Of a DNA stretch of 21,894 bases, positions 2,822 through 14,405 are shown piece by piece; within the stretch, counting starts at the first letter, position 1; each line of letters begins with the position of its first letter. This DNA comes from a virus. The translations under genes were made by a program, and so were the position numbers. The notes under the pieces were generated by a model, which saw only the letters and a program-made list of their open reading frames with translations, ran no database searches and was not told the origin of the DNA. The stretch spans positions 1-21,894 of the IMG/VR virus record IMGVR_UViG_3300035070_000012. The stretch is one strand, 5' to 3'.

Positions 2822-5638
2822 TTATATCTTAATACCGTAACAAAGTATTCGGCCTGAAGTTAGATTTCCAGATGAGGGAAGAAATCGTATTGCGTTAACT
2901 GCAGTTTTTACTTTGTAATGAGTGACGGCGTTATTGTTACCAGTTATTGTTGAAGAGCCACCATGATTTCTAGCTACACGTGAAACAAAAGTAGTGTAAG
3001 CAGTTGTGTCGGCAGGGTCATATACACTTATAATGCCACTGCTTGCATTGTGGTCGCCCAGCGTTGATGTGTTGTTTATAAAAATATTACCTGTGGACCC
3101 GCCTTGATAATTTGAAGTAGCGTAATTACTACCGCCATCAGTACTAGCAAGTGCTGACAATGATACGAATTCCGTATTTGGCTTGATACTCTGAAAATAA
3201 AATTGATAGTTTGAATATTTGCTTGCATCAAAACCAGTGAAATCTAATGTGCTTGAGTTGCTGGCTGTTAATGTTGCTATTAACTCTAAAGCACCTCCCC
3301 CAGCAGCCGCCCAAGTAAGCCCTCCAGTATTGCCTGATTGTGCGGTCAGCATGTAACCGTTTACTGGGCTGTTGCTGACCTTGAGATTTGCCTCATCCAC
3401 TACATTGTCAGCAATAACTGTTGCTCCGTCTGCTGTAGATGTAACCTCTCCCGAATGGTTAGGGTGGACGTAGTTGTTAGCTGATGCAGCAACGCCATTA
3501 AGTTTTGTGTGGTCAGCATCCGTAAACACATTACTATCGGATGCGGATTCTACTAAAGTTCTAATTTCTGAAGCCGTCTGGTCAGCGGTTGCACTAGCCT
3601 CAATACCATTCAGCTTGGTGTGGTCAGCGTCTGTAAATACATTTGAGTCACTTGCAGCCTCAACCGCCGCTCTAATTTCTGCATCAGTTTGGTCAGCAGT
3701 TGCGCTAGCTTCTATACCATTTAATTTTGAATGGTCAGCATCCGTAAACACGTTACTGTCAGATGCACTTTCAACAAGTGTTCTAATTTCTGCAGCAGTT
3801 TGATCGGCAGTAGCACTGGCCTCAATACCATCTAATTTTGTGCCGTCAGCAGAAAGGTCTCTGCCATCAACAGTTTGACTACCAGAGAAAGTCAGATTGC
3901 CAGAAAGTTGACCACCTGTCAGAGGCAGGAAACCACTACCAGCAGTTACGCCCTGCTCCCATGCACTACCAGTATAAACTTTAAGAGTATCACTTGACGT
4001 ATTAAAAAATAAATCACCAGCATTGAGATTGGAGCTAGGGTCAGAACTCCCGCTAGAATAAACCTCGGAAAATGCGGTAATACCAGATAAATTTGTAGCA
4101 ACGGTATTAACGTTTGATATAGATCCAGACACGTTTGACATTGCTGTGACGTTGGCTGATGTGCCGAGGATACCCATATCCTCAACAACTGCCGCCGTTC
4201 CCAAAAAGCCCATATCTTCAACGACAGCACTGGTTCCAAGTAATCCCATTGCTGTGACGTTTGCTGATGTCGCAAGCGTGTTCATATCGCTGACAATATC
4301 AGACGTTGCTAAAGTGTTCATATCTGAAACAACATCCGTTGTGCCAAGTATTGCTAAGTCAGCAACAACGTCAGACGTTCCAAGCAAAGCCATATCAGCA
4401 ATAACATCGCTCGTTCCAAGCAAAGCCATTGCTGCTACATTGGAAGACGTGGCGAGCAAGTTCATGTCAGTAACAATGTCTGATGTAGCAAGAGTGTTTA
4501 AATCAGAAATTATATCACTGGTAGCCAATGTATTTATATCAGAAATAACATCACTAGTAGCAAGCAGAGCCATGTCTGCAACTACATCACTTGTTCCTAA
4601 TAAAGCCATATCAGCAACCGCTGCCGAAGTACCAAGTAGCCCCATATTAGTAACTGTAGTTGAGTTTCCTAATAAACCCATTGCAGTTACATTAGCAGAA
4701 GTTGCCAATGTATTCATATCAGATACAATGTCACTGGTTGCCAATGTATTCATATCAGACACAACATCACTAGTGCCAAGAATAGCCATGTCAGCAACAA
4801 CATCTGTTGTGCCAAGTATAGCCATGTCAGCAATTACAGCACTAGCGCTAAGGTTAGACATATTTGTAATTACTGTACTATTGCCAAGCAATCCCATTGC
4901 TGTAACGTTAGCACTAGTGCCAAGCAAGCCCATGTCTTCAATAACAGCAGACGTAGCAAGTAAGCCCATATCCTCAATAACAGCAGAAGTTGCAAGCAAA
5001 CCCATATCCTCAACTACGGCAGCAGTTCCAAGAAGACTCATATCTTCTATAACTGCAGTAGCAGACAATAAACCCATGTCTTCAACTACTGCAGAAGTGC
5101 CAAGAAGATTAATAGATGCAGTAACATCTGCTAAAGATTGGACGGCAGTAATAGATGGACCTGCTTCAACAGCACCAGTGCTTGCGTTAAAGCCAAGAAC
5201 AGTTCCTTTGCGACTAGCTAATAATGGCAATGTTGTTGAAACACTTGAGTCTGAATCAGAAAGAATTAATCCACGATCAACAGAATCTTTAAGATCAGCG
5301 GCAATAGCAGTAAAGCGATCTAGCTCAGTATTAAGCGTAGAAATCTGAAACGATCCAGATGTAGGAAAGTCAGTTGTTCTAGCAAGCGCAATGTCTCTAG
5401 TAATAACTACAGTGCTGCCGCCAGTAGCTCCTGTAACTGATATAGCTACTGCACCAGTAGAACCACTACCACCGCTTACACTGTAATGCGTAGTAATAGT
5501 TTTTAAGGTGCCATCAACATACACATTAAGATCAGCATCATCAAAGAACTCAAATGATACAGTAAACGATGTTTGTGTAGCGCCCTCACTTACAGAGTAA
5601 GATACACGCGCTGCGTTTTGCGCTAAACTAATAGTCAT
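2822..5638 (-). CDS. Tail fibre protein with T7-type N-terminus and repeat shaft
   Basis: A 938-residue fibre. Residues 1-125 match the T7 gp17 N-terminal, tail-binding domain (SYSVSEGATQTSFTVSFEFF, then a FPTSGSFQISTLNTELDR segment followed by a helix). Residues 177-500 are 27 tandem copies of a 12-residue unit such as GLLGTSAVVEDM. Residues 510-600 form a linker with a tryptophan-containing hairpin (AGDLFFNTSSDTLKVYTGSAWEQG). Residues 601-711 hold three copies of a 37-residue unit (KLDGIEASATADQT...TDADHS), with a fourth degenerate start after them. From about 785 a beta-rich C-terminal domain ends in NAIRFLPSSGNLTSGRILCYGIKI, probably the receptor-binding tip. There is no chaperone-type autoproteolytic domain that I can see. 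The start has an excellent ribosome binding site, 54 bases after the largest internal virion gene. Confidence 0.9.
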   Translation of the reverse strand: MTISLAQNAARVSYSVSEGATQTSFTVSFEFFDDADLNVYVDGTLKTITTHYSVSGGSGSTGAVAISVTGATGGSTVVITRDIALARTTDFPTSGSFQISTLNTELDRFTAIAADLKDSVDRGLILSDSDSSVSTTLPLLASRKGTVLGFNASTGAVEAGPSITAVQSLADVTASINLLGTSAVVEDMGLLSATAVIEDMSLLGTAAVVEDMGLLATSAVIEDMGLLATSAVIEDMGLLGTSANVTAMGLLGNSTVITNMSNLSASAVIADMAILGTTDVVADMAILGTSDVVSDMNTLATSDIVSDMNTLATSANVTAMGLLGNSTTVTNMGLLGTSAAVADMALLGTSDVVADMALLATSDVISDINTLATSDIISDLNTLATSDIVTDMNLLATSSNVAAMALLGTSDVIADMALLGTSDVVADLAILGTTDVVSDMNTLATSDIVSDMNTLATSANVTAMGLLGTSAVVEDMGFLGTAAVVEDMGILGTSANVTAMSNVSGSISNVNTVATNLSGITAFSEVYSSGSSDPSSNLNAGDLFFNTSSDTLKVYTGSAWEQGVTAGSGFLPLTGGQLSGNLTFSGSQTVDGRDLSADGTKLDGIEASATADQTAAEIRTLVESASDSNVFTDADHSKLNGIEASATADQTDAEIRAAVEAASDSNVFTDADHTKLNGIEASATADQTASEIRTLVESASDSNVFTDADHTKLNGVAASANNYVHPNHSGEVTSTADGATVIADNVVDEANLKVSNSPVNGYMLTAQSGNTGGLTWAAAGGGALELIATLTASNSSTLDFTGFDASKYSNYQFYFQSIKPNTEFVSLSALASTDGGSNYATSNYQGGSTGNIFINNTSTLGDHNASSGIISVYDPADTTAYTTFVSRVARNHGGSSTITGNNNAVTHYKVKTAVNAIRFLPSSGNLTSGRILCYGIKI
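3506..3838 (-). repeat. Three tandem 37-residue (111-bp) repeats in the fibre
   Basis: Fibre residues 601-711 contain three head-to-tail units that begin KL(D/N)GIEASATADQT, continue with an EIR-type helix (TLVES or AAVEA), and end SDSNVFTDADH(S/T). A partial fourth copy (KLNGVAASANN) follows. GIEA-ATADQT repeats are familiar in fibres of marine phages, where they are thought to form trimeric shaft or helical neck elements. The protein copies are nearly identical while many codons differ at synonymous positions. Confidence 0.9.
4139..5110 (-). repeat. 27 tandem 12-residue (36-bp) repeats forming the fibre shaft
   Basis: Fibre residues 177-500 divide without gaps into 27 units of 12, consensus (G/A/N)(L/I/T)LGTSxVVxDM. 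Nearly every unit ends in Met (twice Ile or Leu) and has hydrophobic residues at fixed positions (about 3, 8, 9 and 12). Several unit types recur as blocks: NTLATSDIVSDM followed by NTLATSANVTAM appears twice, at units 11-12 and 23-24. Such regular periodicity suits a trimeric coiled or beta-spiral rod; which one cannot be told from sequence. Confidence 0.95.
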
Positions 5639-5692: not shown

Positions 5693-8600
5693 TTAAAAGC
5701 GGGATATAGCATTCGTAGCCTCATTCATTTGATTTTTCCAAAACCACATTCTAGCAAAAGGCAACGAGCGCATAATCTGTTTAGCTCCCTCACCGTATTC
5801 ACCGTTAAGAAACTGACCAACGCCTTCTGCGTAATCTGTAGTTATACTTACGCCAGCACCGCCAACACCTGTAGCTGCATCTACCATTCCCATCGTTCCC
5901 TCACGCGGCGGGAACTTCGGGTTAAGCATTCCACCGCTAATATTAGGACCACCAAGGGCAAGAGAAGTAGACATAGCAGTGTAAAACAGATCACTGTATA
6001 GAGCCATAACACCACTCTGATCAAATGCTCTAGCAAAGCGATCCTCCATATCCATGTTGTCCCAAGCAAAGTCAGGCGTTTTAATCATTAGAGATAGATA
6101 GCCAGCACCCATAGCTGTAGCTAATCCACCCCACCTGTTTTTCATTTGACCTTGCATAAATGATCCTGCAACTTTGTTTGTTGCTGCCAGTGCGTAGCTG
6201 TAGAACTGAAAGGGAAGCCCTAGAAGGCCGCTCTCAATGCGTGAGTAGCCCCTTACACGCGCATCTTCCTTCATTCCGAACATCCGTGCCACATTCATAG
6301 GAACATACGCCACACCGTCCACTAAGATAGGCTTGTCAGCAGGTGTACCCATCATGATTGTGTTAAGTATTCCGCTAGAAAGCGCAGACCTAAAGGCTGT
6401 TAGAGTTTCTTCGTTTACTTTTGGTTGCTCAGAATGACGTTCATAAGCTAATTTGTTAAGAGCATAGTCAGCTTTATCAAACTTAAATTGCCTGTCTTTA
6501 AGAAAAGCCAAGGCATTTTGATCTATTCTTAATTCATAGTTATCAAGAGATTCTATTTCTTTTAGAGGTATAGTTACATCGCCAAGAGCATAAGGTGTTT
6601 CTGGTCTTACTGGCCCTTGTATTGGCTTTACTTGCAATGGCCCCTGATATTGAGTCCTTAGTAATTTGCCATGAGTAAGCTCATGGTAAAGAATAAACTC
6701 TAAAAAATCATTAGGCGTTTTAATTACATCTAAATTCTCAAGCACAAACTTTCTGTGCACATAACTACCAATGCCACCACCAATAGGTTTGTCTTTATTT
6801 TTGTATTTCTCAAGATCAGCAAGCCTTTCTTCTGGCGTCATGCTGTCTATACTTTTCCTAAAGTCTTTATACGCCATAAATGCTTTTTCTTTATCAACGT
6901 AAACTTTAGACGGCGATGTAACATTGCCTACTTTATCGTACTTAAAGTATTGATGCAGACCCATAGCCTCAGGATAATCACTTCTGGCAAATGCAGCGCG
7001 AACCTCTGTTGGATCAGTTATAATCTGACTAACATTAAACTCTTTGCCAAACAAAGACGTTAGCTCACCATCCGTTAGATAAAATAAATTGTGAGCTGTA
7101 AGATCAGCATGACCTAAATCAAAACCTTCTGATCTTAGTATTTCTTTGTTAAGCATAAAATTAGCGTAATCTTGTGGCGTAACAAAAGCATCTTCTGCCA
7201 TTGGAGTAGAACCCTTAGTCCAAGGCTTAGAATCAAACGAGTCTTTAATAAAATCAGGGTCAAAAAGTATCTGGTTTTTGCGAACAACAACAGGAAGATA
7301 CTCACTGTCTTTTGTATATGATTTGGTTTCGCCGTAAACAATTTTGCGACTTGTTTCTGGCATAGTATAGCCGCCTTCCCAATCTTTAGTGTTGGGCATG
7401 TAAAAGCCTTTAGCTGTTACTTGATGTGGCGCAGCTGCAATGTTCAATGCCATCTCTTCGCTAATGCCATAGCGTAACAGATACTCTTTATTCTGCTTAG
7501 AAATAGTACCGTTCTTCCATGCTATAGAATCCTTAATTATAACATGACCGCGAATGATTGAGTCTAGTGTCTTGGCAAACTGAGTAATAGGCGACAATCC
7601 GTTAGCAATGTAAAACGCATTCTTCATCATGTCGTATTTAGTTGTGGCTCTAGGGTTGTTGCTAATGTCATCAACCATACGAATGTGAACATTACCTTGA
7701 TTCATTTCCAAGGCTTCACCAGCAAAATTAGCTTCTTCGCTAGTTAATCTAACACGCTCGTTAGATAGTAGTTCCATCAATCCCTTAAGAACATCACCTA
7801 TCTCATGCTCCATAATAATGCGGCCAAAGTCAGGAATAGCAGAGAGGCCAGCACTACCAAGATAATTAAGCTGCGCCGCTTCTTTCATTACAAATGCAGC
7901 CTTGTTATCCCAGCGATCAGGGTCAGTCTTCATAACCGAAGTAACTACACGGTCATACATATGCACAAAGTCTCTAACTACTTTGTTAATGTCACGCTGA
8001 GAATGTCCCGCCTCCATCATTTCTAAGCGCACATCCTCTAGCATTTCATCAAAGTCTTGTCCGTCAAACATCTTGGCAAACTCATAACGTCCACCTGTTT
8101 TGTGTACGTATGACTTCATAGTATCTATAGGATTCTGCACCATAAACTCCCAAACCAACTTGTTTGGTATGTCTAAGCCTCTGTGCTTTAAGTGCATTGA
8201 TTTGCCAGAGCCAAAGAAATCTTCGGCTTCTTCTGTAGTTTCGTTAAGTATTCTATCTACAGTAGCCTTGGCTCTAACGTTAGTTGCGTCTTTATTGCTG
8301 TCCAACCTTTGCTTTACTAACTTACCGCTTTTATCTCTAACGTAGATAAACGGGTTATCCATGTACCACTTAGATATAATAGCCTCTAATTCCTCGCGCC
8401 TTGCTCTAACTGTAGCATGGTCAAAGTATCTAGGACTAAAGAAGTCTTCGTTAGCAGGTTTAACTTGTGTATCGCCATCAGCAATAGCATCTAAAGAATC
8501 CTGCAATGCTTCTTTGCGTTTGGTGGCTCTAGTCATTTGACTGCGAATAGATGCAACAGTCATCTTCTTGTATTTAAACTTAGGGTTAGATTCTATCTTG

Positions 8601-9997
8601 GCTAACCTAGCCTCAAGATCAGCAATCCTGCCATCAACCTTAACAATGTCTGCAACCAGTTTATTCTTATTACCTATAAGCCCTGTATCTTGTAAACGCT
8701 GGCCCCATACGTCATAGAAATCATCCAGCACTTTACGCGCTGCAACTTCTATCTCAGTCTTAGGTTCTTCTTTAAATATACGCTGCCTATTAATCTCAAC
8801 TAAAAAATCATTGTAGGTTTGTTGCTGACCGCTACCAATTTTATTTTCTAAAGAAACTGCAAGCTCTGTAAGATTTTTACCAGCACGTTTCTTAATATCT
8901 GTGCCTATAGATAAACCCCATAGCTCAGTCATCTTTGCATCAGCCTTAACCCATTCACCTTTGAGCGGTGCCATGCGCTGATACACGGAAGCACCTAGCG
9001 TCTTGCCCATAACGTGTAGGTTTTGCAGCAAGCCAGAATCAGAAGCCATACGGCTCATACGCTCTTTGACTGAATCAGGTATAGCAGCAGATAACACCCT
9101 GCGTATAGGCGTAGAAAGGTAGATAGGGCCAGTACCGCCAGCAGCTATAGCATAGGGATCAGCACCTGCATCTTGTTCTAAGTTTCTAACAGCAAGCTCA
9201 CTTTTAATAGAAGTTAATCTAGCTTGAATCTCAGACCTACGAGAGCCTAGACTTAACTTAGTAGCTTCTTTATTTAAACTTTTAGTAGTTTTGCCTTTAA
9301 ACTTTTCACGAATAGCAGCAGAATTAGCAAGTTCAAATTCTTCTGGTGACAAAGTGGCTAAGTTTTCAAATGCTTGTCTACGTTCCTCTGAATCTTTATG
9401 TTGCTGTAAATGTTTTTTTTCAGCAGCAGCACGCCTATTTAAAGGTATACTGAATGCACTGGTAAACAAACCACCTGATAGCATAGCCATAGATGTATTG
9501 CTAAAGGCTTCCTCAGTAGTAGCTAAAGGGTCTAAATCATACTTTGCAATTTCTAAGCCAGCTTGCAATGCACCAACACTAGCACCACCTTTTAAAAAAG
9601 CCTTGCTAAGATTAACACTTGCGCCGCCAAACGGCAAAGGTATCAAGTTAATAGGATCAAACAAGCCAGCACCAGCTTGCGCCCAGAAACTAGAGTTAGC
9701 TAATACCTGCCTGTTATTAATTCCTTTATCAATTCTAGATTTAAGATCAGCCATATGCTGTTCGTTTTGAGCATAAATTAAAGTTTGTGCATACATATTA
9801 TAATCACCAATATCTTCCATTGGATCATAATTAACATCTACATCATCGCCGTAATTAAACTTGTCTCTTAAGGCATCAACAAAAGGAGAATAAGCGTGAC
9901 TATTTTGCGCCTTAACAGTTTGAAGAAACGATATAGACTCACCGTACTCAGTGCCAAAGTTGTTAATAGCTTCACTATTGCTTATGCTAGTAATCAT
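5693..9997 (-). CDS. Internal virion / DNA ejection protein (T7 gp16 position) with HELTH zincin motif
   Basis: A 1434-residue protein in the slot of T7 gp16, between the gp15-like protein and the fibre, and of similar size to gp16 (about 1300 residues). Near the N-terminus is FDPINLIP (113-120), a segment I associate with large podovirus internal virion proteins. A charged coiled-coil stretch lies at roughly 440-510. I find no lytic transglycosylase motif of the kind at the N-terminus of T7 gp16. Instead, residues 1105-1109 read HELTH inside FILYHELTHGKL, a zinc metallopeptidase HExxH site, with a candidate third ligand Glu1155 in YELRIDQNALAF. Membrane-like stretches occur near the C-terminus (MALYSDLFYTAMSTSLALGG). 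Its likely role is to enter the envelope with the DNA at infection; the peptidase activity is inferred. Its start overlaps the upstream stop (ATGA). Confidence 0.8.
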   Translation of the reverse strand: MITSISNSEAINNFGTEYGESISFLQTVKAQNSHAYSPFVDALRDKFNYGDDVDVNYDPMEDIGDYNMYAQTLIYAQNEQHMADLKSRIDKGINNRQVLANSSFWAQAGAGLFDPINLIPLPFGGASVNLSKAFLKGGASVGALQAGLEIAKYDLDPLATTEEAFSNTSMAMLSGGLFTSAFSIPLNRRAAAEKKHLQQHKDSEERRQAFENLATLSPEEFELANSAAIREKFKGKTTKSLNKEATKLSLGSRRSEIQARLTSIKSELAVRNLEQDAGADPYAIAAGGTGPIYLSTPIRRVLSAAIPDSVKERMSRMASDSGLLQNLHVMGKTLGASVYQRMAPLKGEWVKADAKMTELWGLSIGTDIKKRAGKNLTELAVSLENKIGSGQQQTYNDFLVEINRQRIFKEEPKTEIEVAARKVLDDFYDVWGQRLQDTGLIGNKNKLVADIVKVDGRIADLEARLAKIESNPKFKYKKMTVASIRSQMTRATKRKEALQDSLDAIADGDTQVKPANEDFFSPRYFDHATVRARREELEAIISKWYMDNPFIYVRDKSGKLVKQRLDSNKDATNVRAKATVDRILNETTEEAEDFFGSGKSMHLKHRGLDIPNKLVWEFMVQNPIDTMKSYVHKTGGRYEFAKMFDGQDFDEMLEDVRLEMMEAGHSQRDINKVVRDFVHMYDRVVTSVMKTDPDRWDNKAAFVMKEAAQLNYLGSAGLSAIPDFGRIIMEHEIGDVLKGLMELLSNERVRLTSEEANFAGEALEMNQGNVHIRMVDDISNNPRATTKYDMMKNAFYIANGLSPITQFAKTLDSIIRGHVIIKDSIAWKNGTISKQNKEYLLRYGISEEMALNIAAAPHQVTAKGFYMPNTKDWEGGYTMPETSRKIVYGETKSYTKDSEYLPVVVRKNQILFDPDFIKDSFDSKPWTKGSTPMAEDAFVTPQDYANFMLNKEILRSEGFDLGHADLTAHNLFYLTDGELTSLFGKEFNVSQIITDPTEVRAAFARSDYPEAMGLHQYFKYDKVGNVTSPSKVYVDKEKAFMAYKDFRKSIDSMTPEERLADLEKYKNKDKPIGGGIGSYVHRKFVLENLDVIKTPNDFLEFILYHELTHGKLLRTQYQGPLQVKPIQGPVRPETPYALGDVTIPLKEIESLDNYELRIDQNALAFLKDRQFKFDKADYALNKLAYERHSEQPKVNEETLTAFRSALSSGILNTIMMGTPADKPILVDGVAYVPMNVARMFGMKEDARVRGYSRIESGLLGLPFQFYSYALAATNKVAGSFMQGQMKNRWGGLATAMGAGYLSLMIKTPDFAWDNMDMEDRFARAFDQSGVMALYSDLFYTAMSTSLALGGPNISGGMLNPKFPPREGTMGMVDAATGVGGAGVSITTDYAEGVGQFLNGEYGEGAKQIMRSLPFARMWFWKNQMNEATNAISRF

Positions 9998-12900
9998 TTA
10001 GCACCCTCTATTATCTTACGAGCATTTTCTTTTGCCCGTTCTCTAAGGTCTAAAGACTCACCTTTAGCAGTCGTTGCAAAAAATCCACCTTGGCTAATGC
10101 TTGGATCAAAGTTTGGGTCTACATCTTGAATGCTAACAGTTTTACCTGTTTTCTTCATTGTTTTGCGATCTTCTAGTTGGGCTGTTGTTGGTTGTGCAGC
10201 AGCAGTATTGTCAGCTTTAATTTGTGCAGAAAGATTATTTAAGTAATCTTCATTATCACTAAAAAACATAACTGTTCCTGTGTCTTCATTGCGAACAGGT
10301 GCTGTTCCTGTAGGTATTAAGTTGCCATCTGAATCTTTAGCATAAACAATTTCACTAAGAATCCAGTAAAAAGCATTGTCATTACTTTTAGGTAACGGAA
10401 TAAGAAATGCCTCTTTGGACTCTTCTACTGCCGAAGCTAGTACGCCAAAAACATTACCAGAAGTTATTTCATTCCATGCTGTAGGATTTACACCAAATCT
10501 ATAACCCTTTGGCAAATTAGAAGCCACATCATCTATAAAGGCTTCTCTAAGTTTTTCGTTTGGTATAACTTTAATTAAAGCGCCGCGACTTCTTCCTATA
10601 TCTGTTTGACCATAATCAAGTACATAACCATCAGTTTTAGGGTAAGTTGTTTCATACTCAACTACAATTAATTGAGCAATATTTTGAACAGGAGTTCCAG
10701 AGTTATAAAAATGTTCAGCTAATGCTGCCATTCTAGGAGCCGCTTCGTAACTTAAACCTAATGCTTTTATAGTTTCATCGCTGTGAATAAACTTAGCGCC
10801 GCTACCAAACTCCTGTGCTTTAAGTTGTTGTTGAGCAGTAGTTAAAGGTTTGTTCATTGCTGTAAGTATTTCAGAATACTGTCTTGTCCCTAAACTCTGA
10901 CTAACAAGATAAACAGATGATAGATTGTCTAAAGTATTTTTGTTATAAAGATCGCTGTAGCTATCACGATCTATAATGCTAGACGTTACACCGTTATCAT
11001 GCACAAAGTAATGCATGTTTGCAAAGTGACTCATTGCATTTTCAACTTGTTGTGGATTGAGGTCGCCATGATTAGGACTTGCTAATTTGTTAAACAGTTG
11101 AGCAAGTCCGTTAGACATAATGCCTCTTTGCGCTTCACTCATAATTATTCTTGCAGCATTGTTAATATTAAATTCATCATCACCAATTTGATATTGACTT
11201 GGATCACCTAAAGAAAATGGGCTAGTAAATACTTGTTCTATTACTTTAGATGAAAGCTCGCCTGTTGGATCACCTTCTACACTCAAACCCAAAAGAGATA
11301 GAACCTGTTGATCGGCAGCTTTAGCTGTATTAATCCTTTCAGTCTTAGAGGTTCCCATGTTTGCATCAAGAATCATTGATTGCGTTTTAAGTTTTGCAGC
11401 CGCAATATCTTCGTTTGCCTTTAGTTTACTGCTTATAGTTCCTAAATGTTGCGAAATACCAGAAGGGTCTTGACCTTGCTCTAATCTATCTAAAATTCTA
11501 TCACCGTAAATTCTAATTAATTCTTTACTAGCATTGTTAGGCAGAGTTTTGTTTTTAACATACAAAGATAACTCAGCATATTGTTGCGCTGTAATAGCAC
11601 CTCCTGCTGTAAACGCATCAGCAATATAAGCTTTAGCTCTATAAGTACCATATCTATTTAGATCACGGCGCTTTTGTTCTGTAGTAATAACACCATCAAG
11701 TTCAGCGCGAGTAAGTGCTGCTCTAAGCGCTTCTGCAATTTTAAAGTCTTCTTGCGGATTATCATCAAGTGCTCTAGTTGCACCAGCATATAATTGAGAC
11801 ACTTCTAAAGATCGTTGAGCTTTTATTTGTTCATCTACAAAGTCATTCTTAATATCGTTAATATATTTTTTAGCAAAAGAAACATCATCTTCTGAATTAT
11901 ATATAGAAGGGTTTGACGTTATTAACTTAGCAATAACTTGTTGTTCAACAGAAACTCCTTGCAGATTAACAGATTCACCAGCAACCATAGATTCAAACGC
12001 AACTGTATCAACGCCGCCACCAGACAAAACACCTTGCTTTAACAAAGCAGCTAAAGTTGCTCTATTAATTTCTTTAACATCTGATTGATACTCTGTAGAT
12101 GTGTAAGGATTTTTATCAGTAGGTTTACTTTTCAATAACCGTTTTTGCAAACCTTGAACCATAGTAGCCGCATTATTAATAGCTGCTTGACCTACAGACT
12201 GTAGTGTATTTGCTTCTGCATAAGGCCCAACAACTTGATCTTGAAGTGGATCAGATATTTGCAATTCTGCAAGGGCTGACATAAATTGATTGCTAATATC
12301 TACTGGTATAGATTCAATCATTGCTATAGCTTCTAAGTCAGCTAAGTTTTGCATCTGCAAACTAACAACAGCCTTAGTGTCATCTATATTTTGTTGCGCC
12401 CTTGCTTCTGCTCTTGTCATGTCACCGCTTATAGATTTGGCAAACTGCAAAACATCTGGCAAGTTTTGAAAATCAACATAACCAGTTTCAGAAACTTCTA
12501 TCTCACGACCTTTAGCATCTGTTACTATTCCTAAAAAACCTTCTTCATGTTTACCAAATAAAGTTTTAAAATTATTTAACTTTGATAAATCGTCTAAAAT
12601 TGTTTTGGGTATTGCTCCATATTGACCGCGAGTTTTAATGTACTTAATAAAATCCTCACGAACAGTTAAGTTATTTATATCCTCCATAACATAAGCTAAA
12701 AAGCCTTGAGCTATACTAGTACGTCCAGCAATTCTATACTTTAATAACTGACTACCTTTAAGCAAACCAGAATCAGCACCACTTTGCATTTGAGAAGGCT
12801 CACCATTAAGGGTAGTTGGACCATAAGATTCATTAAATTCAAACAAAGCTGTTGTAACATTATCACCGCCTTGTGTAGCTAAGTCATAAAGTCTGCTGGA

Positions 12901-13467
12901 ATCTTGCATAGCTTTAACTAAAAGGTAATCACTTTGATCTGCTCTATATCTAGCTCTAGCTTTTTGCATTAAGTTTATCTTAGTAGATTTAAGATACTCA
13001 GTGCCTTTATCCATTATAATGTTAGCATACTTACCTTCAACGCCTGTCTGCTCAACAACATCAGCTATATATTTAGACATTTGTTCTTCGTATGCGGCAG
13101 GATTTTCATACTTTAAAGCATACTCAGCAGCTTTAGTTCTAATGTTGTTATCAACATTATCCATGTAACGAGCATCAACAACACGACGAAACGCAGCAGC
13201 AGCAATACTGCCTTGTCCCTCTACTTGACTAAATGCTTCTGGTTCACCAGTAACAGGATCAATAGTTGTAATTGCAGATAGAGCTAAATCATTACCTTGT
13301 TTAGTTGCAGTTTCTTCTGCAATCCTAGCGCCTTCTTTAAAGGCAATAGAAGTCAACTGATCGGCACCAGCCTTGACTGTTTTCCACAACTCTGCTTCGC
13401 CTGTGTCCATGCGAGTGACACCGATTGGCTTGCTAAAAACCTGTTGTCTCTGACGAATTACAGCCAT
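9994..13467 (-). CDS. Internal virion / DNA ejection protein (T7 gp15 position)
   Basis: A 1157-residue, mostly helical protein without signal peptide or clear enzymatic motif. It starts MAVIRQRQQVFSKPIGVTRM, and the first 200 residues are Ala/Glu/Lys-rich helix (AGADQLTSIAFKEGARIAEE). Later parts keep a soluble, helix-rich character with many Gln and Asn residues. It lies between the 174-residue gp14-like protein and the 1434-residue protein, the gp14-gp15-gp16 order of T7-like phages, where the three proteins form the inner core and are ejected to build a channel across the envelope. It is longer than T7 gp15 (about 750 residues). Its start follows the gp14-like stop directly, and its end overlaps the next start by four bases. 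The assignment rests on position and composition, not on a recognised motif. Confidence 0.75.
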   Translation of the reverse strand: MAVIRQRQQVFSKPIGVTRMDTGEAELWKTVKAGADQLTSIAFKEGARIAEETATKQGNDLALSAITTIDPVTGEPEAFSQVEGQGSIAAAAFRRVVDARYMDNVDNNIRTKAAEYALKYENPAAYEEQMSKYIADVVEQTGVEGKYANIIMDKGTEYLKSTKINLMQKARARYRADQSDYLLVKAMQDSSRLYDLATQGGDNVTTALFEFNESYGPTTLNGEPSQMQSGADSGLLKGSQLLKYRIAGRTSIAQGFLAYVMEDINNLTVREDFIKYIKTRGQYGAIPKTILDDLSKLNNFKTLFGKHEEGFLGIVTDAKGREIEVSETGYVDFQNLPDVLQFAKSISGDMTRAEARAQQNIDDTKAVVSLQMQNLADLEAIAMIESIPVDISNQFMSALAELQISDPLQDQVVGPYAEANTLQSVGQAAINNAATMVQGLQKRLLKSKPTDKNPYTSTEYQSDVKEINRATLAALLKQGVLSGGGVDTVAFESMVAGESVNLQGVSVEQQVIAKLITSNPSIYNSEDDVSFAKKYINDIKNDFVDEQIKAQRSLEVSQLYAGATRALDDNPQEDFKIAEALRAALTRAELDGVITTEQKRRDLNRYGTYRAKAYIADAFTAGGAITAQQYAELSLYVKNKTLPNNASKELIRIYGDRILDRLEQGQDPSGISQHLGTISSKLKANEDIAAAKLKTQSMILDANMGTSKTERINTAKAADQQVLSLLGLSVEGDPTGELSSKVIEQVFTSPFSLGDPSQYQIGDDEFNINNAARIIMSEAQRGIMSNGLAQLFNKLASPNHGDLNPQQVENAMSHFANMHYFVHDNGVTSSIIDRDSYSDLYNKNTLDNLSSVYLVSQSLGTRQYSEILTAMNKPLTTAQQQLKAQEFGSGAKFIHSDETIKALGLSYEAAPRMAALAEHFYNSGTPVQNIAQLIVVEYETTYPKTDGYVLDYGQTDIGRSRGALIKVIPNEKLREAFIDDVASNLPKGYRFGVNPTAWNEITSGNVFGVLASAVEESKEAFLIPLPKSNDNAFYWILSEIVYAKDSDGNLIPTGTAPVRNEDTGTVMFFSDNEDYLNNLSAQIKADNTAAAQPTTAQLEDRKTMKKTGKTVSIQDVDPNFDPSISQGGFFATTAKGESLDLRERAKENARKIIEGAK

Positions 13468-13992
13468 TTAATAAGCCCTTCTATATTTTCCACTGTAGGA
13501 TATGCTAGGCTTTGATTGTTTAACTGTTGGTGTACTTGGATCACCTGTACCAATTTTAGCCGCTCTATAGCCACCTTCCGCAATAGATTGAGCAGCGCCA
13601 AGATAACCAGCAGTTAAAGCATTACGTCCACGTTGACGCTCTGCCCCAGCCATAGCCGCTACACTCTGCGCTCTCATATTGGTATCAGACGCCAGCCTAC
13701 TAATATCTGTACTGTAGATTTCTTCCTGCCGTTCCATAAATGCGCGTACACTTCTGTCTGTTACATCCCTGCCAGCAAAAGCAAAGAAGGCATCGTTAGC
13801 TGATACTGATTGTGCATAGTCTTGAGCCATAGCAGTTGCATTTTGAGTTGCCTCAATGCGACCTAGCTCCATGTCTCGTTCCATCTGCGCTGCATTAAAC
13901 TGAGCTTCTTTCTTTGCTTCTTTACCAGCCCTAACAGAACTATAGGCCGATATGCCCGTTCCAATTACGATTGCTGCCGTTACAAAACTCAT
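13468..13992 (-). CDS. Internal virion protein B-like (T7 gp14 position)
   Basis: A 174-residue protein with a hydrophobic N-terminus (FVTAAIVIGTGISAYSSV, about 3-20), then a long Ala/Gln/Glu-rich helix (KEAQFNAAQMERDMELGRIEAT) and a Gly/Ser/Lys-rich tail ending in GKYRRAY. This is the plan of gp14-type internal virion proteins: a membrane-active N-terminal helix plus helical core. T7 gp14 is similar in size (about 196 residues) and forms the pore in the outer membrane at ejection. It overlaps the cupin-like gene by four bases and abuts the 1157-residue gene. Confidence 0.8.
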   Translation of the reverse strand: MSFVTAAIVIGTGISAYSSVRAGKEAKKEAQFNAAQMERDMELGRIEATQNATAMAQDYAQSVSANDAFFAFAGRDVTDRSVRAFMERQEEIYSTDISRLASDTNMRAQSVAAMAGAERQRGRNALTAGYLGAAQSIAEGGYRAAKIGTGDPSTPTVKQSKPSISYSGKYRRAY

Positions 13993-14405
13993 ACTACTGC
14001 CTCCGCAAATTTAGCTTCAAGCTGTTTAACTTCTTGCTCATATCCAAGGGCAAACTCTGTTTTATCTACAAGCATGTCTTCTAACACATCTATATCAGTT
14101 TCATCTGTAGCAAATACATTCTGCAAAATTACATCATCAATTATAAAGAATGCTTTCCGTCCAAGGTCTGATAAAAAAGTACACGGAGCTTTAATTTTTT
14201 TAACTTCATTGTTAGTGTAAATCAAAGCCTCGCCCTGCAGCATAATGTTTAAATGTTTTCGTTTGTGGGAATGACCTAACACCATTGTACCTGCTGGCAT
14301 AAAAGCCTCACGAATATAAACATCAGGAGCAAAGTGATGTGTAACAGGACAATGCACTTGCTCTACAGAAAGCATTTCTTTCTCAAGAGTATCAAAGTCC
14401 TTCAA
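13989..14405 (-). CDS. Cupin-like protein in the virion gene cluster
   Basis: A 138-residue protein with a near-perfect cupin motif 1, G-x5-HxH-x3-E-x6-G: Gly39, His45, His47, then His51 in place of the usual Glu, and Gly58 (GHSHKRKHLNIMLQG). The second motif is weak: PCTFLSDLGRKAFF (74-87) has the Pro and Gly but Ala at the place of the fourth metal ligand. It could bind a metal through three histidines, or be a structural jelly roll without activity. It overlaps the tail tubular B gene and the gp14-like gene by four bases each, so it is made with virion proteins. It occupies the place, and has the same length, as gp13 in T7, but does not resemble it. A function as virion part, assembly factor or enzyme is open. 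Confidence 0.65.
   Translation of the reverse strand: MKDFDTLEKEMLSVEQVHCPVTHHFAPDVYIREAFMPAGTMVLGHSHKRKHLNIMLQGEALIYTNNEVKKIKAPCTFLSDLGRKAFFIIDDVILQNVFATDETDIDVLEDMLVDKTEFALGYEQEVKQLEAKFAEAVV

Follow-up and report, generated by a model that had tools for sequence, protein, structure and literature searches.

Zincin metallopeptidases are the commonest domain of polyvalent proteins, and either autoproteolysis or the cleavage of host targets has been proposed for them (Iyer et al. 2017, PMC5512222). The MPTase-PolyVal domain (PF18818) is built of a three-stranded core, an HExxH helix, a glutamate in the next helix and variable inserts between the helices; it belongs to a large phage protein that is believed to accompany the DNA, and sometimes occurs with lysozyme or ADP-ribosyltransferase-like domains. 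An HExxH domain is also found in the largest ejection protein of a podovirus: the virion RNA polymerase of N4, which corresponds to gp16 in position, has it as its C1 domain (residues 2124-2375, PMC12633501). T7 gp16 itself lacks a zincin insert and carries a transglycosylase at its N terminus. Models place its residues 411-1118 in the cytoplasm of the host and the transglycosylase in the periplasm, and the lytic transglycosylase domain is phage-specific and may reside in other ejection proteins (PMC8954989). The text of PMC5512222 makes no mention of gp16 or internal virion proteins, and a search confined to the open-access literature found no metallopeptidase in a T7-type gp16. The zincin described here is like MPTase-PolyVal in the features listed for that domain, with its presumed travel alongside the DNA deduced from gp16 homology and gene order, but unlike it in that the protein carrying it is of T7 type, that a dead and a live zincin form a nested pair, and that the domain is exchanged between near-identical proteins.

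The window, by which we mean the whole 21,894-nucleotide stretch analysed (IMG/VR record IMGVR_UViG_3300035070_000012), is from a marine bacterial virus with a probable SAR11 host; its portal shares 64% identity with the Pelagibacter phage Hodr portal, which makes SAR11 the likely host group. The genes are ordered portal, scaffold-position protein, capsid, tail tube, gp14-like, gp15-like, gp16-like and tail fibre, and all window features given below are on the minus strand. The gp14-position internal virion protein (13468-13992) matches phrog_418 (E 9.4e-9), and the gp15-position ejection protein (9994-13467; 1157 aa) has no family match. The gp16-position product (5693-9997; 1434 aa) matches PHROG 342, annotated as 'internal virion protein with endolysin domain', with E 5.6e-27 over residues 23-856 and profile positions 224-998 of 1235. 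Because T7 gp16 also belongs to PHROG 342 (full length, 1354.7 bits) and the gene order concurs, we assign the product as a gp16-type ejection protein (internal virion protein), as the original prediction had proposed. Direct hhalign comparison of its family with T7 gp16 gives E 6e-6 over 106 columns. The two proteins share backbone family and gene position, but their domain contents are reversed, in that no N-terminal lytic transglycosylase was found in the window protein, whose profile match starts only at position 224 and which therefore lacks the N-terminal endolysin part, whereas it has the zincin insert that T7 gp16 lacks.

Three other genes have recognizable features. A second zinc peptidase, unrelated to the gp16 zincin and serving lysis, is encoded at 421-873; it is an endolysin of the M15-type D-Ala-D-Ala carboxypeptidase kind (PF13539 E 3.7e-6, phrog_465 E 7.7e-42). 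Between residues 170 and 490 the tail fibre (2822-5638) has a long series of imperfect repeats of the LGTSxVVxDMxxL type, each about ten residues long, and a small protein encoded between the tail tube and gp14-like genes (13989-14405), apart from the tail fibre gene, matches phrog_12032 of the short tail fibre families (E 7.4e-34).

Residues 1105-1109 of the gp16-type protein read HELTH (6671-6685) and directly follow FLEFILY (1098-1104), which confirms in the reading frame at 5693-9997 what had been noted for this 1434-residue product; His1105 and His1109 are predicted zinc ligands and Glu1106 the general base. Downstream, YELRIDQNALAF starts at residue 1154 and includes Glu1155 (6533-6535), the predicted third ligand. 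This assignment, also made originally, has gained support, as Glu1155 is invariant in alignment A7 and aligns in profile-profile comparison with the invariant Glu of the YEN[KRA]IN motif in the second (type A) form of the domain described below. His1081 (6755-6757; A7 column H109), 24 residues ahead of the HExxH, is invariant in all type B domains. HExxH occurs in 2.3% of shuffled proteins of the same composition, and in 0.4% with zincin-like flanks, so the motif by itself is modest evidence and it is conservation that lifts it.

In the first relatives the region came either in a long form, with HELTH, or in a form about 174 residues shorter, with HEIMH. A scan for the short form returned 45 loci, a biased set since its patterns included HEIMHT; an unbiased scan therefore used only the conserved C-terminal gp16 flank (residues 1203-1434; 5696-6391; alignment A6), and the best 80 of 434 relatives were retained. 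In 74 of these 80, none selected for the motif, an HExxH is present no more than 420 residues upstream of the flank, in nine spellings (HEIMH, HEIAH, HEVMH, HEINH, HELHH, HELQH, HELMH, HEFHH and HELTH). The remaining six include one truncated contig (L120) and a single zincin-free group of five (L112, L133, L141, L147 and L150). An ExxI[ND]xxA motif, the Glu of which is Glu1155 in the window, follows every one of the 105 zincin-domain HExxH sites in non-redundant proteins, a set that takes in loci from the HEIMHT-biased scan, where the Glu motif was not a selection criterion; the exception is two patterns of the genome scan that named it, and the genome scan yielded no matches. An example of a chance HExxH is HEQTH at residue 204 of L112, outside any zincin domain. 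Alignment of homologues, proposed as a check with the original prediction, thus finds both histidines, the Glu of HExxH and the third-ligand Glu conserved, and the homologues do not give the refuting outcome named with that prediction. Given this conservation a chance motif is rejected, and HELTH together with Glu1155 is very probably a genuine zincin site. A gene fusion artefact was likewise considered and rejected, since the peptidase is common to five related contigs, with synonymous changes.

The zincin domains are of two types. Type A has about 130 residues and the motifs HEIMHT...YENxIN; type B has about 150-200 residues, with HELHH or HELTH and then ExRID. The two align by hhalign with 98.5% probability (E 1.7e-15), HExxH on HExxH and Glu on Glu, and at the level of profiles they are homologous and form one family. 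Invariant residues of type B include, in window numbering, His1081, His1105, Glu1106, His1109 and Glu1155 (alignment A7), and the window domain is 25-35% identical to independent type B domains (L096, L101, L115, L126, L088, L099, L117 and L132), with H, E, H and E still in common at this distance. The AlphaFold2 model of a type A domain (pLDDT 90.4, pTM 0.84) has strands, then the HExxH helix (72-88), then a long helix (103-132) with the Glu at its start, which is the zincin order of secondary-structure elements. Its fold neighbours in the PDB all have E above 0.1, below significance, and the majority are zincins (selecase, jannalysin, deuterolysin, lethal factor, PPEP-3, PprI, Wss1 and neprilysin). 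In BFVD the strongest matches, with E down to 2.7e-6, are to uncharacterised phage proteins of large size; entries for SprT, IrrE and metallopeptidases rank next, and many of the fold neighbours are zincins. Minigluzincins (selecase, jannalysin), SprT, IrrE/M78 and YgjP-like peptidases are accordingly neighbours in the zincin fold with weak profile matches, every one of them below significance in the PDB and Pfam. The window insert gave a weak model (pLDDT 71.4, pTM 0.62) with which a fold search returned nothing informative. The structural check proposed earlier was carried out in part, with the related type A domain folding confidently. Sequence searches of solved structures with types A and B and the gp16 family gave no meaningful match, and the type A domain is absent from the bacterial and archaeal genomes scanned, which fits lytic phages.

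The gp16 zincin may work like the MPTase-PolyVal zincins, but the sequence tests do not place it among them. Against PF18818, with its cut-off of 27.5, the best scores are 13.6 bits (L023) and 12.3 bits (L022), and the window has no match; in a negative control comparing the N4 virion RNA polymerase MPTase clade alone, the hhalign probability was about 3% with either type (3.4% and 3.1%). We do not file the gp16 zincins as MPTase-PolyVal members because they score below the PF18818 cut-off and do not match the N4 clade. The N4 polymerase, for all its similarity of position, has a different backbone and no profile similarity (probability about 3%).

The HELTH domain is part of an insert of 329 residues (874-1202; 6392-7378), placed between the conserved N..W and FRxA..TPADKP segments of gp16 and absent from this site in several relatives (L015, L016, L017, L112, L191 and L096). 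The interval of 6500-6700 given in the original prediction does contain HELTH and Glu1155, but the functional unit is the larger 6392-7378. The insert alone finds no match by tblastn in phage records, and none over cut-off in Pfam or PHROG. Its N-terminal part (residues 877-955; 7133-7369) matches the type A profile (E 2e-15; alignments A1 and A5) and is the start of a degenerate outer zincin, in which NKEILR (950-955; 7133-7150) occupies the position of HEIMH in live relatives; KEILR thus stands in place of HExxH, with K and R for the two histidines. A complete type B zincin follows at residues 973-1178 (6464-7081), matching the type B profile with E 1e-65, a value true by construction since the window sequence is part of that profile. 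The C-terminal helix of the outer zincin comes after this inner domain (residues 1179-1202; 6392-6463), where ALNKLAYERHSEQ aligns with KINDLALKEHNKQ of live relatives, and in this register Asp1177 replaces the outer third-ligand Glu. From the order of the type A match, the type B match and the outer helix, the inner zincin lies in the outer loop between the zinc helices, and the insert reads as a nested pair, a complete HELTH zincin within a ligand-less outer one. The MAFFT alignment A5 placed the short-form YEN motif on YELRID and not on the outer helix, and because of this misplacement the nesting was settled by the flanks, the separate profile matches and the other inserts that relatives have there. 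Neither the nesting, the insert nature of the region nor the cassette exchange described below was part of the original prediction.

Other inserts in the same outer loop are found in L013, L068, L065, L069, L131 and L161, and L167 has one placed earlier in the zincin domain. The 260-residue insert of L065 (L065:6193-7002), between the two zinc-binding helices, has no Pfam or PHROG match. Three zincin inserts (L013:1221-1700, L068:6187-6618 and L167 residues 962-1051) share the pattern GFxRxYxF..GRWFxxD..A..Y..EN..GELxYVDxP, and are possible ADP-ribosyltransferase cassettes in the same ejection protein, weakly like ART-PolyVal; the loop inserts matched ART-PolyVal with E 4e-4 in the L013 record and 0.15 in a whole-library scan of L068, both below cut-off.

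Both members of the nested pair are under purifying selection, with dN/dS of 0.03-0.09 for the inner and 0 to 0.07 for the outer zincin, and the dead outer domain is therefore still a folded, selected part; having lost its ligands, it would be retained as a fold. Such strong selection on a domain without ligands, and the retention by Hodr of a degenerate copy alone, are what one might see if zincin folds served a structural role, filling out gp16 or contacting a partner, with catalysis incidental. We think this unlikely for the family, given that all zincin-bearing proteins other than Hodr keep at least one full ligand set, that the dead outer zincin has a second, live one in its loop, and that type B domains retain H, E, H and E at 25-35% identity. 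The inner zincin (residues 973-1178), with HELTH, Glu1155 and all ligands, is on its sequence most likely an active zinc metallopeptidase.

The zincins vary in both type and place. A quick-method backbone tree of 69 gp16 proteins, in which L015-L017 have long branches, shows no fewer than 19 changes of zincin type or site, a count in which gain and loss are indistinguishable. The gp16 proteins of L117 and L143 are 90-100% identical along their length, 78% at the module edge and 19-45% inside the module, which is of type B in one and of type A in the other; relatives swap the domain as a cassette between near-identical gp16 proteins (90-100%), which may differ in nothing but the zincin that they carry. 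In nine relatives (L096, L101, L114, L115, L125-L128 and L130) there is no zincin at the C-terminal site; their type B zincin lies about 380 residues upstream of it. A third site is used in Hodr (L015, OQ414635), whose gp16, annotated as a hypothetical protein, contains a degenerate type A zincin at residues 262-378 (L015:4374-4718) with KEVYR at the HExxH position and FENRIN retained. No other near relative in culture was found, and a live cassette is absent from all cultured relatives found. Since Hodr has only this degenerate copy, and the L112 group and L191 have no zincin in an otherwise normal gp16, the activity is not essential in every phage.

Cassette exchange is also compatible with adaptation to differing self-cleavage sites and with recombination at a tolerant loop. 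In the former case gp16 or its companion ejection proteins would be cut by the zincin, either during head maturation or once injected, which would release or remodel parts of the ejectosome. Autoproteolysis has been proposed for polyvalent-protein zincins, and P1 DdrB undergoes processing prior to its packaging (Iyer et al. 2017, PMC5512222); the presence of the zincin at three gp16 places is as a built-in processing enzyme might be found. We nonetheless regard self-processing as somewhat doubtful: the backbone is 90-100% identical across very different zincin types, so that a shared cleavage site must suit both, the zincin-free relatives (L112, L191) have a normal gp16, and no processing precedes packaging of the N4 virion RNA polymerase, which has an HExxH domain of its own (PMC5512222). 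Domain swapping suggests that the zincin may act on something inside the host cell.

Mapped through PHROG 342, the three sites correspond to T7 gp16 residues of about 1010-1110 (C-terminal site), about 700-790 (second site) and near 400-540 (Hodr site), all approximate positions interpolated from the profile at low sequence similarity to T7; by this analogy all insertion sites fall roughly within or bordering the cytoplasmic part of T7 gp16. This bears on the suggestion, made in the original prediction, that the enzyme cuts peptidoglycan peptides, which now looks less likely. A wall or periplasmic peptidase acting on such peptides or on an envelope protein could aid passage of the ejectosome and replace the absent T7 transglycosylase, in keeping with the loss of the N-terminal endolysin part from the window gp16. 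We hold this to be quite improbable, as every insertion site maps to the cytoplasmic part, the zincin has no similarity to known wall peptidases, the phage encodes a separate M15 endolysin, and two relatives, L022 and L023, combine an N-terminal lysozyme or pesticin domain (9e-5, 5e-36) with a C-terminal zincin. With wall enzyme and zincin both present, the zincin is no stand-in for a wall enzyme, and replacement of a missing muramidase was rejected. In these two gp16 relatives the N-terminal region (L022:4107-5006, L023:4293-5192) contains Phage_lysozyme and Pesticin domains and then proline-rich repeats (PPPRPxTVEA).

The cytoplasmic mapping and the separate lysozyme of the relatives favour an injected cytoplasmic peptidase over a wall peptidase. 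We judge the chances about even that the zincin is a peptidase injected into the cytoplasm, where it cuts a host protein. As part of gp16, the inner zincin would be packaged in the virion, enter the host along with the ejection proteins before the DNA does, and come to rest on the cytoplasmic side of the inner membrane, a location borrowed from the T7 topology; there it would most likely cleave a host protein early in infection. More tentatively, the C-terminal half of gp16 in this large group of marine podoviruses may be an effector-delivery platform, in which recombination at a few fixed sites exchanges protease and probably ADP-ribosyltransferase-like cassettes, and dead zincins receive live ones, in an arms race with the host proteins of the first minutes of infection.

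In the literature that we found, T7-type ejection proteins are treated as parts of a channel, at most with a wall-cutting domain in addition. A live zincin nested in a dead one, with both under selection, would be an unusual way of replacing a lost activity while leaving the carrier protein unchanged, and the short zincin domain is a testable unit. The group is common in marine viral contigs, with 434 related stretches in one scan, and its nearest cultured phage infects SAR11. If the proposal is true, a conserved and exchangeable zinc protease in the cytoplasmic part of gp16 would mean that podoviruses deliver an enzyme into the cell before phage gene expression.
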